A stretch of DNA of 64,000 nt. Source: Flavicella sediminum (lineage in GTDB: Bacteria; Bacteroidota; Bacteroidia; Flavobacteriales; Flavobacteriaceae). Below the pieces are notes generated by a model. That model saw only the letters and a program-made list of their open reading frames with translations. It was not told the DNA's origin and made no database searches. The stretch spans positions 1,770,123-1,834,122 of the forward strand of contig NZ_VDET01000002.1 in NCBI RefSeq assembly GCF_006381105.1, in the 5' to 3' direction. Position 1 is the stretch's first letter, and the number at the start of each line of letters is the position of its first letter. Positions 21,845-27,752 of this stretch are shown piece after piece. The position numbers were made by a program, and so were the translations under genes.

Positions 21845-21852
21845 TACTTTTG
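21845..21852 (+). promoter_or_regulatory. Promoter of the secreted thioredoxin-like gene (-7 box)
   Basis: TACTTTTG fits TAnnTTTG exactly, 15 bases before the chosen ATG at 21868. This implies a very short leader. No clear -33 TTTG. Confidence 0.45.
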
Positions 21853-21867
21853 TGTAAAAAAAACGCT

Positions 21868-24426
21868 ATGAAAAACACACAGAAAATTATTTGTGCAATC
21901 CTTTTTTTGCTGTCAGTCAATTTTGGATTTTCTCAGAAAATCATCAAAAACCCCGAATTTGGTGCAAGTTCCTTGCCAGGAGAAATAAGGAAATTAGAAA
22001 TTTTAGAAGACGCAACCGTCCTACATTTTCATTTACACGGAAAACCTGGAGCAGCGTTTTATATACCTAAAGGTTCTTGTATCAAAGATGTAGAAAAGGA
22101 TGAGAAATTATTTGTGATAAAGGCAGAGGGGATTCGTCTTAACAAAAAAACGATTTTTCCTGAAGCTGGAGTCCTAAATTATAGCTTGTATTTTCCACCG
22201 ATAAAGAAAGATGTTGGAAGAATTGATTTCTTTGAATCAAATAAAGGAGGTTCTTGGTATGTTGAAGACATTATAATTAACGATACTAAATTTGGTTCTG
22301 TATTACCCAAAGCGTTAAAAGGAAATTGGTTAAAAACAGACGGTAGCAATGTCTTAGCGTGTTCTTTTCAGAATGATAAGGCTATCGTTGATAAACAAAT
22401 TTGGGAGTATAAATCAGTTAAGGAAAAACGGAATCTATATACGCTTGTTTTAGAAAAAGCTGGCGCAGAAAAAGTGGTTTATGCAAAACAAAACAAAGAC
22501 AAAACGATTCGTTTTGGTAGTCATAAAAAACATTTAGTAAAGCTTAGTAAAAAAAGAACTGATGTTAAAGTTAGCAGCTTCGTTGATGAGGAACGCTACA
22601 ATGAAACTGAATTTTTAAAAATAGATTCTACTACTTATTCGGGTGTATTGTTAAATTATAGTAAAAGGAATCCACAAAAAACAGGTATGCTGCATGTGAG
22701 TAATGTTTTTACAGGGAAACAAGATTCTTATTTGGTTAAAATAAAAAAGGATGGTAGTTTTTCAGTAAAATTTCCATTGCTTCATCCTCAAGAAGTTTAT
22801 GTGAGATTACCCAATTATAGCGGTTCTGTTTTTGTTGAGCAAGGTAAGGAAACTTGGCAATTGATAAATTCTAAGAGCCGTACGGACGTTTTATTTGCAG
22901 GTGATTTGGCGCAGTTAAATACGGATTTAACGAGTTTGCAATTTTTGTCATTAGATAGAAGTTATTACAATCTAACGAAAAAAATTAAAGAGATTTCTTT
23001 AGAAGAATATAAAAATAAGACAATTGAAATTCATGAGGCTCAAACTAAAAAATTTGAAGACCTTCTTAAGACAAGAACAATTAGTACTAAAGCACAACAA
23101 ATAATTCGCTTAAAATTAGCGTACGCTTTTTACCAATACTTGGTTAGTTATGACATGTATAACAGAGAAAGTAACGAAACTAAAATAGATAAGGCTTATT
23201 TAAGTTTTATGGCAACTGATATTTATACTAATAAATTGGCAGTTATGGTAAGTGAGTATAGAAATTTTGTGAATCGCTTACGATTTTGTGCACCGCTTCG
23301 TAGTAACATGAGTGTTTCTGGTATAAGTAATGTAGAATTAGCAGAAATATTAAAGGAAAAAGGAATTACCTTGACTGATGAGGAACAAAGTCTAATAGAT
23401 GGACAATTGAAATTTAATATGGATAATGCTAAAACTATACAAAAAGAAATAGATTTTAATACTGAAAATGCTGAAGAGATTAAAATGTTTAGATTAAAAG
23501 TTAGTGAATTGTATAGAAAAATGACTGAGGTAGACCGTAAGAAATTGTATGCTAATAATAGGGTGCATATCGATAGTACTTTGGCTTATCTTAAAAGGTA
23601 TGAGGTAGATGTGCCAGAAAATGTAATCGCTGTTCAAATTGCAAAAAATGACATATTGACCAAAGAAGAGAAGGAAAAAAACAATGCCTTTTTTAATGAA
23701 GAGCATAGAACTAAAAGCAGAGCCTTTTCTAAAAAATACTCCGGAATTACAAGAGAGAATATGTACAGTAAACTTAGAAAATCTCAATTAGATAATATCA
23801 ATTTATTTTTTGATAAACAAGAAAATTGGTTGTCTGATATCATAAAGATGCAAATTGTAGCAGGGTCAATTAAGGATGAATTATCACCGCTTTCACAAAA
23901 AGAATTAAGCGAAGTGTCGAAAAAAATTAGCAATTCCTTTTTAGTTGAGTGTCTGAAAAATGAAAATAAGAAAACCATTTTGAAACTAGAGTCTAATAAA
24001 AAAGCAACAGGTTTTGTTGTAAAAGAAACACCAAAAACAGATGGAGATAAAGTTTTTAAGGCGATTATTGAAAAGTACGAAGGAAAGGTTGTTTTTGTTG
24101 ATTTTTGGGCAACTTGGTGCGCTCCCTGTCGTTCAGGAATTAAAAGGATGATTCCGATGAAGGAAGTACTAAAAGACAAGGAAGTCGTGTTTTTATATAT
24201 AACCGATACTACTTCTCCTGAGAAGACTTACAATAATATGATTCCAGGAATAAAAGGAGAGCACTACAGAGTCTCTGCTGATGAATGGAATTATATGAAA
24301 ATCAAGTTTAACATATCAGGTATTCCGCATCATGCCTTGGTTGATAAAACTGGGAAAATTATAGAAAAGAAACTTAGGCATCAGCCCAATGAAACTTACA
24401 AAAAACTTATTGAATCGCATTTGTAA
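21868..24426 (+). CDS. Large secreted TlpA-like thioredoxin-domain protein
   Basis: Exported protein of 852 residues. A signal peptide ('IICAILFLLSVNFGFSQ') occupies residues ~1-24. A beta-rich N-terminal part (to ~residue 350) has no firm family. A long charged helical region follows (~350-710). A C-terminal thioredoxin fold (~725-852) has the active site 'WCAPC' (Cys751, Cys754) in 'VDFWATWCAPCRSG' and cis-Pro in 'ISGIPHHALVD'. This fits Bacteroidota periplasmic disulfide reductases related to TlpA, though it is longer than most. I start at ATG 21868 because the upstream frame only offers a TTG and adds six charged residues ahead of the signal. Located before an ABC ATPase and a permease that also carries a thioredoxin domain, suggesting a shared redox task. 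Substrate unknown. Confidence 0.8.
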   Translation: MKNTQKIICAILFLLSVNFGFSQKIIKNPEFGASSLPGEIRKLEILEDATVLHFHLHGKPGAAFYIPKGSCIKDVEKDEKLFVIKAEGIRLNKKTIFPEAGVLNYSLYFPPIKKDVGRIDFFESNKGGSWYVEDIIINDTKFGSVLPKALKGNWLKTDGSNVLACSFQNDKAIVDKQIWEYKSVKEKRNLYTLVLEKAGAEKVVYAKQNKDKTIRFGSHKKHLVKLSKKRTDVKVSSFVDEERYNETEFLKIDSTTYSGVLLNYSKRNPQKTGMLHVSNVFTGKQDSYLVKIKKDGSFSVKFPLLHPQEVYVRLPNYSGSVFVEQGKETWQLINSKSRTDVLFAGDLAQLNTDLTSLQFLSLDRSYYNLTKKIKEISLEEYKNKTIEIHEAQTKKFEDLLKTRTISTKAQQIIRLKLAYAFYQYLVSYDMYNRESNETKIDKAYLSFMATDIYTNKLAVMVSEYRNFVNRLRFCAPLRSNMSVSGISNVELAEILKEKGITLTDEEQSLIDGQLKFNMDNAKTIQKEIDFNTENAEEIKMFRLKVSELYRKMTEVDRKKLYANNRVHIDSTLAYLKRYEVDVPENVIAVQIAKNDILTKEEKEKNNAFFNEEHRTKSRAFSKKYSGITRENMYSKLRKSQLDNINLFFDKQENWLSDIIKMQIVAGSIKDELSPLSQKELSEVSKKISNSFLVECLKNENKKTILKLESNKKATGFVVKETPKTDGDKVFKAIIEKYEGKVVFVDFWATWCAPCRSGIKRMIPMKEVLKDKEVVFLYITDTTSPEKTYNNMIPGIKGEHYRVSADEWNYMKIKFNISGIPHHALVDKTGKIIEKKLRHQPNETYKKLIESHL

Positions 24427-24615: not shown

Positions 24616-25521
24616 ATGAAAGAGTTCGCTATTCAAACAGAAGACTTGTCGTTTTCGTATTCCAAAAAACATAAAATATTAAATAAAGTAAATATTAATG
24701 TACCCAAAGGATCAATCTATGGTTTTTTAGGTCCAAATGGTGCAGGTAAGTCTACCACAATGCAGTTGCTTACTGGTGTTTTGGTAAGTGAAAAAGACGA
24801 TATTTCTATTTTTGGGAAAGAAATAAAAAGTCAAATGCCTGAAATGTTTCATAAAATGGGAGCTTTGGTCGAGTCTCCAAGTTTGTATATGCACTTGTCT
24901 GCGATTGACAATTTAAGATGTGTTACTACTTTAAAAAGTATAGATGAATCAAAAATATATGAAGTTTTAGAACTTGTAGGATTGTTAGAAAATGGAAATC
25001 AAAAAGTGAAAAAATTTTCTTTAGGAATGAAACAGCGTTTGGCAATTGCGATGACTTTATTAGGTGATCCAGAGTTGTTGTTGTTAGATGAGCCGGTAAA
25101 CGGATTAGATCCTACAGGAATGACTGAGGTTAGGGAGTTGTTGGTGAATTTAAATAAGGAAAAAGGAATTACCATTTTTATTTCAAGTCATTTATTAGAC
25201 GAAATTCAGAAAATGTGTACGTATATTGGCATTATTCATAAAGGAGAAATTCAATTTGAAGGTACAATGGAAGAACTCGCTTCACGAAATACGGATTGTA
25301 CTGTTTTATTAGAAATTGGTGAATCGGAAAAACATGCATCTATTCTTGAAGAAGCATACGAAGTCCTAAGACAAGAAAGTGAAAATCAGTTTAAAATTTC
25401 GCTATCAAGCAAAGAAGATATTCCTGAGGTAACTAAATTTTTAATTCAAAATAACATACCCGTTTATCAACTTCGGATAGAGGAAGGATTAGAAAATTGG
25501 TTTTTAACACTAACAAAATAG
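24616..25521 (+). CDS. ABC transporter ATP-binding protein (BcrA/drug-peptide type)
   Basis: Cytoplasmic ATPase of an ABC-2 type exporter. Walker A 'GPNGAGKST' (residues ~39-47), signature 'FSLGMKQRLAIA' and Walker B 'LLLLDEPVNGLDP' followed by 'SSHLL' are intact. The C-terminal ~85 residues after 'GTMEEL' form the regulatory tail seen in BcrA-like and antibiotic or lantibiotic self-protection ATPases. The stop overlaps the upstream region of the permease gene by a few bases of spacing (permease ATG at 25527, 5 bases after this stop), so the two are one unit. Which substrate is moved cannot be read; no precursor peptide gene was found nearby. Confidence 0.9.
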   Translation: MKEFAIQTEDLSFSYSKKHKILNKVNINVPKGSIYGFLGPNGAGKSTTMQLLTGVLVSEKDDISIFGKEIKSQMPEMFHKMGALVESPSLYMHLSAIDNLRCVTTLKSIDESKIYEVLELVGLLENGNQKVKKFSLGMKQRLAIAMTLLGDPELLLLDEPVNGLDPTGMTEVRELLVNLNKEKGITIFISSHLLDEIQKMCTYIGIIHKGEIQFEGTMEELASRNTDCTVLLEIGESEKHASILEEAYEVLRQESENQFKISLSSKEDIPEVTKFLIQNNIPVYQLRIEEGLENWFLTLTK

Positions 25522-25526
25522 AGGCT

Positions 25527-27752
25527 ATGAAAACTATATTTCCATATTTAAAAAAGAACCTAAAATTAGAATTGATAAAAAAGAAACGTTCGGGTATTTT
25601 TACATTAAGCATTATTTTAGGGGCTATAATTCCGTTGGTGTTTTTTATTGTACGCCTTTTTGTATATAGTAAGGGTATACAAAAAGGAGGTGGTATTCCT
25701 GTGAATTATTATTTTGAAACACTAAATAATGAAGCCTTAGTAGGTTTTTCATATTTTTTATTCCCTATACTAATCATAATATCTGCAAGTAAAATAACAC
25801 AAATAGATCATAAAAATAAGGGTTGGAATTTGATGGAAACCCAGCCAACTACAAAGGCTTCTATATATTTCTCTAAATATCTTGTTTTGTTAGCAAGTAA
25901 TTTGATTGCAATTGTATCCTTGTTGTTTTCTGTGGTTGTTTTTGCATTTTTATTATCTGTGTTTTTTGAGCTTCCTTCTTATAAAATAGTGTCTATACCT
26001 TTTGAAGATTTTTTTAAAGTAGGAGCAAGGCTTTTTATTGTTAGTTTAGGAGTTACAGCATTTCAGTATAGCATATCTGTTTTAATTTCTAGTTTTATTT
26101 GGCCTCTTTTAGTAGGTTTTCTAGCCATGTCTGCATCTACATTAATGAGAAAGTCTAACCTGATCATGAACTGGTATCCGTTTCAGCAATTAGGAGATGT
26201 GAGTGTGTATCCTAGAGGTAGTGACTTGGGAACAAATTGGTTTACTTTTTCAGAACTGTTAAGTATTTTGTATTCGGTTCTCTTTTTGTTTATTGGGTAT
26301 AGTTGGTATTATCATAAAATATTTATAAGAGCATTTTTTAAATCTAAAAAAAGAAGCCTATCTGTTGTTGGTGTTGTTACAATTTTAGGTTTGCTGATTT
26401 ATTCGGTTGTTATACCTAAACAGCAAGAGAGAAGCAATAAAACTGTTGTTAAAGGAACGGTGTCTGGCAATGTGCCCTTGAAAACCTTTTATGTTTTCGG
26501 TGTTTTGGCACAAGATACACTTGCGAAGATTCCTATTATAGATGGTGAGTTTAGAGGTGAATTGACAGGGGATTTAAAATTTGACACCTATTTTATTGAA
26601 TTCGAAAAATACTATGGGCAACAACTGTTTTTTGGGAAAAATGATAGTCTGCAGATTGATTTTAAAATTTATGGAAGACAAAATAAAATTGAAATAACTG
26701 GAACTCGGTTGGCAGAAAATATGAAAATAAAATCTAGCCGCCGTTATAGTACCGTGAAATATTATTTAGATAGAAATATCAATTTAGATAAAGACGAATT
26801 TTTTGTTAAAGAGATTCTTAGGGAATGGGAACTGAATTTAGGAGAGATTCACAATAAAAGAACCGTAGATAATTTTATACCTAGTGACGACTATCTTGCC
26901 CGACAAACAAAAATAGTTTCTTTACGGTCTTTGAATAATTGGGACAGCTATAAAGAAAAAGTAAAAAAAATATTTCCTAATAAAATTATCAAAGATGCTG
27001 ATAAGCTTGAAGATTTAGAGAATAGTGTGTATTTAAATGATGCAGATTTATTATCAGTAGAAGAATACTATACTTTTGTACTTAAAAAATTGATTCAAAA
27101 AGACGAAAGAATTGAGGTGTCTGATTCTCAAAAACATTTTGAAGCTATAGATAAATTAGAACCTAGTTTGTTCAAAGATAGATTGCTTTTTAAGCATCTG
27201 AAAAATAGCATTACCAATGCAGTGGAAATAAAAACCAGAGATTCTTTGATGAATAGATACCTGTCATCAATTAAAAAAGAATCTTATCAAAAATTATTAG
27301 TAAAAGAATTATACAATCAAAATAGACTGACAAAAGGGAATGTAGCTCCAGATTTTGTAGCAAGTGATACCAATGGAAAAACATTTGAGTTGAAAGATTT
27401 TAACGGAAAATACTTGTTGATAGATATTTGGGGGAATTGGTGTAAGCCTTGTTTGCAAATAGCTCCTAAGTTTAAAAAGAAAGCTTTACAGTATAAGAAT
27501 AAAAATATTGTTTTTGCAAAAATGAATTTTGGAGACTCTAAGGCAATTTGGAAGGTTTCTTCTAAGAAAAAGGACACGCTGCTATTTGACTTAAAACCCA
27601 TAAACGAAAAATTATTTATAAAAAACTACAATATCAAAAAGTACCCTACTTTTATTTTAATTGATCCTGAAGGGAAGTTGATTAGTTCAGATTTTTCAAG
27701 ACCAGATTATCCGCTCTTTGATGAGATTTTGAATAAGTATTTAGTAGAATAA
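25527..27752 (+). CDS. ABC-2 permease fused to periplasmic DUF4369-like and thioredoxin domains
   Basis: A fusion of 741 residues. Residues ~20-310 contain about seven membrane helices, consistent with an ABC-2 permease paired with the ATPase just upstream. After the last helix ('VVGVVTILGLLIYSVVIP') comes a beta-rich domain (~315-420, 'VVKGTVSGNVPLKTFYVFG') resembling the DUF4369 N-domain of TlpA-like proteins. Next is a charged helical linker, then a thioredoxin fold (~605-741) with 'WCKPC' (Cys639, Cys642) in 'IDIWGNWCKPCLQIAP' and a cis-Pro in 'IKKYPTFILID'. The thioredoxin half should face the periplasm. I start at ATG 25527, since the earlier in-frame start only overlaps the ATPase. The frame is continuous, with no sign of an assembly error. 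The architecture is unusual; the role is unknown. Confidence 0.85.
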   Translation: MKTIFPYLKKNLKLELIKKKRSGIFTLSIILGAIIPLVFFIVRLFVYSKGIQKGGGIPVNYYFETLNNEALVGFSYFLFPILIIISASKITQIDHKNKGWNLMETQPTTKASIYFSKYLVLLASNLIAIVSLLFSVVVFAFLLSVFFELPSYKIVSIPFEDFFKVGARLFIVSLGVTAFQYSISVLISSFIWPLLVGFLAMSASTLMRKSNLIMNWYPFQQLGDVSVYPRGSDLGTNWFTFSELLSILYSVLFLFIGYSWYYHKIFIRAFFKSKKRSLSVVGVVTILGLLIYSVVIPKQQERSNKTVVKGTVSGNVPLKTFYVFGVLAQDTLAKIPIIDGEFRGELTGDLKFDTYFIEFEKYYGQQLFFGKNDSLQIDFKIYGRQNKIEITGTRLAENMKIKSSRRYSTVKYYLDRNINLDKDEFFVKEILREWELNLGEIHNKRTVDNFIPSDDYLARQTKIVSLRSLNNWDSYKEKVKKIFPNKIIKDADKLEDLENSVYLNDADLLSVEEYYTFVLKKLIQKDERIEVSDSQKHFEAIDKLEPSLFKDRLLFKHLKNSITNAVEIKTRDSLMNRYLSSIKKESYQKLLVKELYNQNRLTKGNVAPDFVASDTNGKTFELKDFNGKYLLIDIWGNWCKPCLQIAPKFKKKALQYKNKNIVFAKMNFGDSKAIWKVSSKKKDTLLFDLKPINEKLFIKNYNIKKYPTFILIDPEGKLISSDFSRPDYPLFDEILNKYLVE

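Follow-up and report, generated by a model that had tools for sequence, protein, structure and literature searches.

What would a bacterium gain from an ABC permease that carries a thiol reductase on the same polypeptide chain? ABC exporters are usually considered as one kind of system and periplasmic thiol reductases as another. The question is raised by a gene within a 64,000-nucleotide stretch of the Flavicella sediminum genome (contig NZ_VDET01000002.1, positions 1,770,123 to 1,834,122; this whole stretch is called the window below). The preliminary description of this DNA knew of no function described for such an architecture, and in an open-access literature search we likewise found no description of the fusion.

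A single open frame joins a permease to a TlpA-type module

An ORF check showed that positions 25527 to 27752 on the forward strand form one frame that stays open for 741 codons, which bears out the earlier claim that both halves belong to a single 741-residue protein. An alternative TTG start at 25497 would add 10 residues and give a long frame overlapping the upstream ATPase gene by 25 nt. We prefer the ATG at 25527 because it lies 5 nt past the ATPase stop codon and because, read from this ATG, the protein aligns with two relatives from its first residue onward. An AlphaFold2 model of the protein was built from 17 fusions (pLDDT 84.0, pTM 0.72; weak stretches at residues 230-236, 402-405, and 673-682). 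It contains seven long helices (residues 24-49, 61-96, 110-146, 159-186, 192-210, 241-263, and 274-295), in line with the roughly seven membrane helices described before. Together with Pfam and alignments, the model divides the fusion into an ABC-2 permease part with six long helices (residues 1-271; 25527-26339), a seventh helix (residues 274-299; 26346-26423), a beta domain of eight strands (residues 306-392; 26442-26702), a helical domain (residues 409-600; 26751-27326), and a TlpA/ResA-type thioredoxin domain (residues 601-741; 27327-27749). In Pfam searches, ABC2_membrane_4 matched residues 12-199 (E 1.7e-11; 44.8 bits against a cut-off of 27) and AhpC-TSA matched residues 604-718 above its cut-off (E 8.8e-14). 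Thioredoxin_8, Redoxin, and Thioredoxin also exceeded their cut-offs, the first two within residues 603-720. The beta domain had been called DUF4369-like; this holds for the family, since three of 17 fusions match DUF4369 with E-values no higher than 0.01 (the best being 1.4e-5), but not for the window member, which gave no match at E up to 1.

The sequence, Pfam, and the model agree on the thioredoxin fold with WCKPC that had been reported, its CKPC motif (27441-27452) containing Cys639 and Cys642, and Pro707 (27645-27647) occupies the cis-proline position as assigned by motif. These features, WCxxC plus cis-proline together with thioredoxin-like Pfam families over their cut-offs, place the domain in the TlpA/ResA type. 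A fold search with the domain returned Bacteroides and Bacillus TlpA/ResA-type structures, the best being 4ka0 with a TM-score of 0.89 over the target. By motif, WCxPC and the cis-proline are present in 37 of 37 non-identical fusions and in six of six more (43/43), the f5 members among these 43 being a subset of the fusions counted below in that second family (f5). At the position of ResA Glu80, an active-site glutamate tied to cytochrome c work, the 37 fusions have Ile (29, including the window), Thr (4), Glu (3), or Leu (1), and none of the six additional fusions has Glu. The scarcity of this glutamate, at 3 of 37, speaks against the fusion simply doing what ResA does in cytochrome c assembly. 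Cys639 and Cys642 are the only cysteines of the window fusion, which excludes a DsbD-like thiol relay through the permease in this protein. Nor is such a relay general, since no non-active-site cysteine is invariant in 17 fusions (Cys at position 128 in 8, at 182 in 8, and at 170 in 6).

The reductase is not fused as a bare domain. The C-terminal module, some 440 residues long, is co-linear with free-standing TlpA lipoproteins (450 to 470 aa) over their whole length; the lipoprotein nature of these proteins was judged by eye from their starts. Ten of 31 free-standing TlpA frames align from query residues 287-313, and from within their own first 27 residues, to near both ends; fusion residues 287-738, for instance, align with residues 6-454 of L012. 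Owing to this co-linearity, the seventh helix falls at the position of the lipoprotein signal peptide. It may be that a signal peptide became a permanent helix, placing the module in the periplasm. This argument is carried by the co-linearity of the whole module, as two aligned hydrophobic stretches alone would be weak evidence. Topology points the same way: ABC-2 permeases usually have their N-terminus inside, and with the N-terminus inside, six helices plus a seventh would put the C-terminal module in the periplasm.

The permease and its ATPase partner form an ABC-2 transporter

ABC2_membrane_4 was detected in 16 of 17 fusions, and a DHKN motif at permease residues 94-97 is invariant across all 17. 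We classify the permease as an ABC-2 exporter on the basis of this Pfam match over its cut-off and an adjoining ATPase gene, which immediately precedes the fusion gene in the same orientation in each of the 23 fusion loci mapped by hand. Foldseek searches with the model were headed by NosDFY-type chains, ABCG2, and PmtCD with a probability of 1.00 but weak E-values (0.015 to 0.078), and no match was found at E up to 0.001. Ranks 1 to 7 were chains of NosDFY-type entries, taken as NosY (TMq 0.44-0.57), and a chain of a CcmABCD entry came at rank 15 (E 0.11). Neither Pfam CcmB nor the NCBIfam lantibiotic permease models matched the permease at E up to 1, and its profile gave one chance hit and nothing else against PDB sequences.

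In the window, the partner gene (24616-25521, forward strand) encodes an ABC ATPase of 301 aa. Its best NCBIfam model is the lantibiotic protection family TIGR03740, at 243.4 bits and thus below the cut-off of 309.75, followed by DrrA; it also matches NosF at 128.6 bits, with ABCA chains scoring higher. The Walker A, signature, Walker B, and H-loop motifs are intact in all 37 ATPases that partner fusions. Among 39 ATPases that partner stand-alone permeases, they are intact in 38, 39, 38, and 39, respectively. All 76 have an acidic residue at the Q-loop position, namely Glu in 4 and Asp in 33 of the fusion partners and Glu in the 39 stand-alone partners; in the window it is Glu86. An acidic "E-loop" is a mark of LanF ATPases, and our open-access literature search found no text on this mark. 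The gap between ATPase and fusion is 1 to 30 nt in 16 of the 17 loci mapped first, the remaining one being the window with its overlapping TTG frame and its ATG 5 nt away. An ATPase gene also accompanies 42 of 44 stand-alone permeases.

The gene neighborhood varies between clades

Upstream of the pair in the window, 189 nt before the ATPase, lies a gene for a TlpA-like protein with WCAPC and a start that resembles a signal peptide by eye (21868-24426, forward strand, from an ATG; a TTG at 21850 is possible). We ruled it out as part of a conserved unit since none of six other fusion genomes has a full-length relative of it. Elsewhere the surroundings, named from Pfam, depend on the clade. On the same strand, gldC follows the fusion in 28 of 37 loci and gldB also precedes the operon in 26 of 37; in most f5 loci (f5 being the second family) the operon adjoins gldC and usually lies between these two gliding genes, as at L083 7210-11850. 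This housekeeping-like setting counts against reading the locus as a peptide exporter. Four of the 37 loci and one further locus have an M13 peptidase gene immediately upstream, which weakly fits a peptide theme. This arrangement, with the peptidase upstream of the ATPase-fusion pair, belongs to a sub-clade (L077, 4049-8523; L076, L080, L087, and L167). In one locus (L075, 11868-12344), a gene for a 158-aa LuxR-type DNA-binding protein stands just after the fusion in the same orientation. In two further cases (L092, 7252-10202; L093, 9326-12277), a stand-alone relative of the transporter directly follows a gene of the erythromycin esterase family.

No constant third gene was found among neighboring frames of at least 60 aa, which Pfam named in part of the loci, and the changing company of gldB/gldC, M13 peptidase, TlpA-like, and LuxR-type genes indicates that the scanned neighbors include no constant third partner. 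Redox state had been suggested as a signal for transport. Nothing beyond the fusion itself supports this, and the Pfam-scanned part of the neighbors in nine loci (L083, L077, L075, L164-L168, and the window) contained no sensor kinase or response regulator. A promoter and terminator scan gave 31 and 2 sites, against 29.9 and 2.2 in shuffled sequences. A role in phage defense was rejected as well, the fusion having no match in PADLOC at E up to 0.01 and the ATPase matches there resembling generic ATPase similarity.

The fusion is conserved in two families

We searched genomes of the window's family, its order, its class, and a second family of the order (f5); the class gave the widest scope, and since these samples share genomes the counts are not additive. 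In the window's family, 394 of 397 genomes match the fusion protein. The permease-part profile matches only 12, so the remaining matches rest on the TlpA part. Three of the 12 carry the fused form (the window's own genome, G224, and G033), and nine have stand-alone or short weak matches only. The two near-full-length relatives among the 397 genomes share 43% (G224) and 27% (G033) identity with the window protein. The order sample (395 genomes) gave 23 matches, namely the own genome, a fourth from the same family (G601), 13 fusions of f5, and 8 f5 genomes with stand-alone forms only. Full-length fusions are thus found in four sampled genomes of the window's family.

Fusions are far more numerous in f5, where 91 of 320 genomes match, with 75 strong fusion-type matches in 74 genomes. 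Seventy-one of these, in 70 genomes, have frames of at least 700 aa and include the 13 from the order sample. The other four are either interrupted (L134 and L147) or placed at contig ends by their coordinates (G1233 and G1276). In L134 and L147 the thioredoxin part lies in the next, separate frame, through decay or sequencing error. The 17 remaining matching f5 genomes have stand-alone or weak matches only. Across the class (395 genomes), 36 match, and the 35 besides the own genome have frames of at most 302 aa, none of them fused.

Absence of the fusion from all relatives had been named beforehand as grounds for abandoning the idea; instead, it is present in G224, G033, and G601 as well as in 70 of 320 f5 genomes. 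Joining of two genes by sequencing or assembly error is therefore extremely improbable, the same joined frame recurring in the 71 f5 matches and in four genomes of the window's family. A scan of genome contigs with patterns specific to the fusion protein returned one relative (L035, a Flavobacteriaceae bacterium MAG). Fused and stand-alone forms can share a genome, as in G490 and G668, and G1201 has two fusion operons (L168, 1658-6342; L169). The second copy in G1201 is divergent and is followed, in the same orientation, by a separate thioredoxin-domain gene. We rejected a mobile or viral origin, as viral contigs held no relative of the fusion and none of 53 matching plasmid records covered 80% of the query.

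Trees of all three parts allow a single origin

In a tree of 76 permeases, the 37 fused forms lie on one side of a branch and the 39 stand-alone forms on the other (bootstrap support 100/100). The tree of the partner ATPases likewise has the fusion partners on one side of a branch (100/98), and a reductase tree separates 17 fusion modules from their 25 best-matching free-standing TlpA proteins (100/100). Branching within the fused group is alike in all three, with G033, then G601, then the window and G224 on one side and f5 on the other, although support for the four-member side is moderate (97/91, 92/63, and 89/72). A single origin is compatible with the trees but not proven by them, as they carry no root and have G033 on a long branch. 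The simplest reading, and one that fits the three trees, would be that an old fusion arose once and that motor, pore, and reductase were inherited together from then on. An ancestor in which ATPase, permease, and TlpA genes were split neighbors was considered and rejected, since none of 44 stand-alone permease loci has a thioredoxin-domain gene within a flank of about 1.5 kb (less at contig ends). The same count, along with the lack of fused forms among the 35 class genomes, upholds the initial view that ABC-2 permeases and TlpA-like reductases are normally separate. In a 19-kb locus with a stand-alone permease (L094), a thioredoxin-domain gene lies 2.8 kb away.

What the fusion may do

Taken together, the intact motifs of the ATPase, the single permease gene, and the module co-linearity show that the locus encodes a two-gene ABC-2 transporter whose one permease bears a whole TlpA-lipoprotein-like module. 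Both parts are well known, and their joining is a stable variant. The preliminary description had placed a reductase at the exit of an exporter, and this stands as far as an exporter-type permease and a TlpA domain with a conserved active site share one chain and have been kept over deep divergence. What the arrangement does is a matter of weighing readings. The one that we favor, tentatively and at a probability of just under 0.4, is that the transporter exports peptides that are membrane-bound and contain disulfides, with a reductase placed where they leave.

LanFEG/Cpr pumps clear the membrane of lantibiotics (PMC5786555). The fusion resembles these systems in an ATPase nearest to TIGR03740, a six-helix ABC-2 permease, and an acidic residue at the Q-loop position. 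Unlike them, it has a seventh helix and a reductase, its ATPase scores too low for TIGR03740, and LanC is missing from the window's genome. Furthermore, LanFEG has two permease genes (LanE and LanG), whereas the fusion loci have one permease-profile gene (23 of 23). With one permease gene, the transporter would be a homodimer and would hold two reductase domains above its exit. By analogy, the pump would pick up a compound of amphipathic or peptide-like nature in the inner membrane and push it outward, the fused WCxPC site would open the compound's disulfides on its way out, and this site might be re-reduced by DsbD; the window's genome encodes one DsbD_TM protein that could supply the electrons. 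A LanFEG/Cpr-type pump with a reductase at its exit would suit disulfide-stabilized peptides, and the likely use would be disarming antimicrobial peptides of this kind. Lanthipeptide self-immunity is unlikely in the window's genome and in four of six other fusion genomes, all of which lack a LanC-like protein; two of the seven genomes have one.

The module itself offers an alternative. As a whole lipoprotein-like unit, it makes simple tethering possible, in which permease and reductase act apart and the fusion only anchors TlpA to the inner membrane and fixes the stoichiometry. In keeping with this, the module shares its extent of about 440 residues, WCxPC, and the cis-proline with the Bacteroidota TlpA/ResA lipoproteins (DUF4369 plus TlpA), and the seventh helix stands where their signal peptide does. 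The fusion differs from those lipoproteins in that a helix continuing from the permease replaces the lipoprotein signal, and in its rare Glu at the Glu80 position. We regard tethering as unlikely, for free-standing TlpA proteins are plentiful in a family where nearly all genomes match through this part, and the fusion has persisted among deeply diverged genomes, with just two interrupted and two contig-end cases among the 75 strong f5 matches.

Slightly less plausible is a mechanochemical device modeled on NosDFY, in which ATP hydrolysis would move no substrate but cycle the periplasmic module and deliver the reductase to a client such as a copper or heme protein or an outer-membrane protein. 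NosDFY serves as the analog here because it works with a periplasmic part, although NosD stands as a protein of its own with a different fold. The permease model lies closest to NosDFY-type chains, albeit with weak E-values, which makes such a role a serious rival. Further points in its favor are the NosF match of the ATPase, the large module fused to the permease, and the presence of TlpA bound to copper-site assembly partners (4txo and 4txv) among the fold matches of the reductase. On the other hand, the E-values start at 0.015, ABCA chains outscore NosF, the rank of NosY may reflect how few bacterial ABC-2 permeases have been solved, and no client gene is linked to the locus. NosZ (TIGR04246) exceeds its cut-off in three of seven fusion genomes and not in the window's, so we rejected the fusion as a nos accessory. 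Cytochrome c maturation system I, CcmABCD plus CcmG, also has an ABC-2 transporter and a TlpA-like reductase in one pathway, as separate proteins; the fusion permease differs from CcmAB(CD) in lacking a CcmB match.

A little further down in our ranking, the transporter might export its own cysteine-containing molecule, a small thiol or peptide, and the reductase would either hold this cargo in reduced form or draw electrons from it. The build of an ABC-2 exporter, with a reductase where cargo leaves, would suit this, but no precursor gene was recognized beside the operon among frames of at least 60 aa, and the DsbD_TM protein provides an ordinary electron source. We consider it more doubtful still that the ABC core transports nothing and instead acts as a motor, moving or gating the two TlpA modules fused to it, so that cytoplasmic ATP drives thiol chemistry outside the membrane.

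Whether the fusion expels and reduces disulfide-containing peptides, as we favor, or acts otherwise, its retention alongside the ATPase in two bacterial families implies that these activities go together somewhere. It also offers a way to learn what the TlpA lipoproteins, so abundant in Bacteroidota, act on, since a client caught in a trap or a substrate of the pump would identify one of their targets, and it would test whether an ABC motor can couple to redox chemistry outside the membrane.
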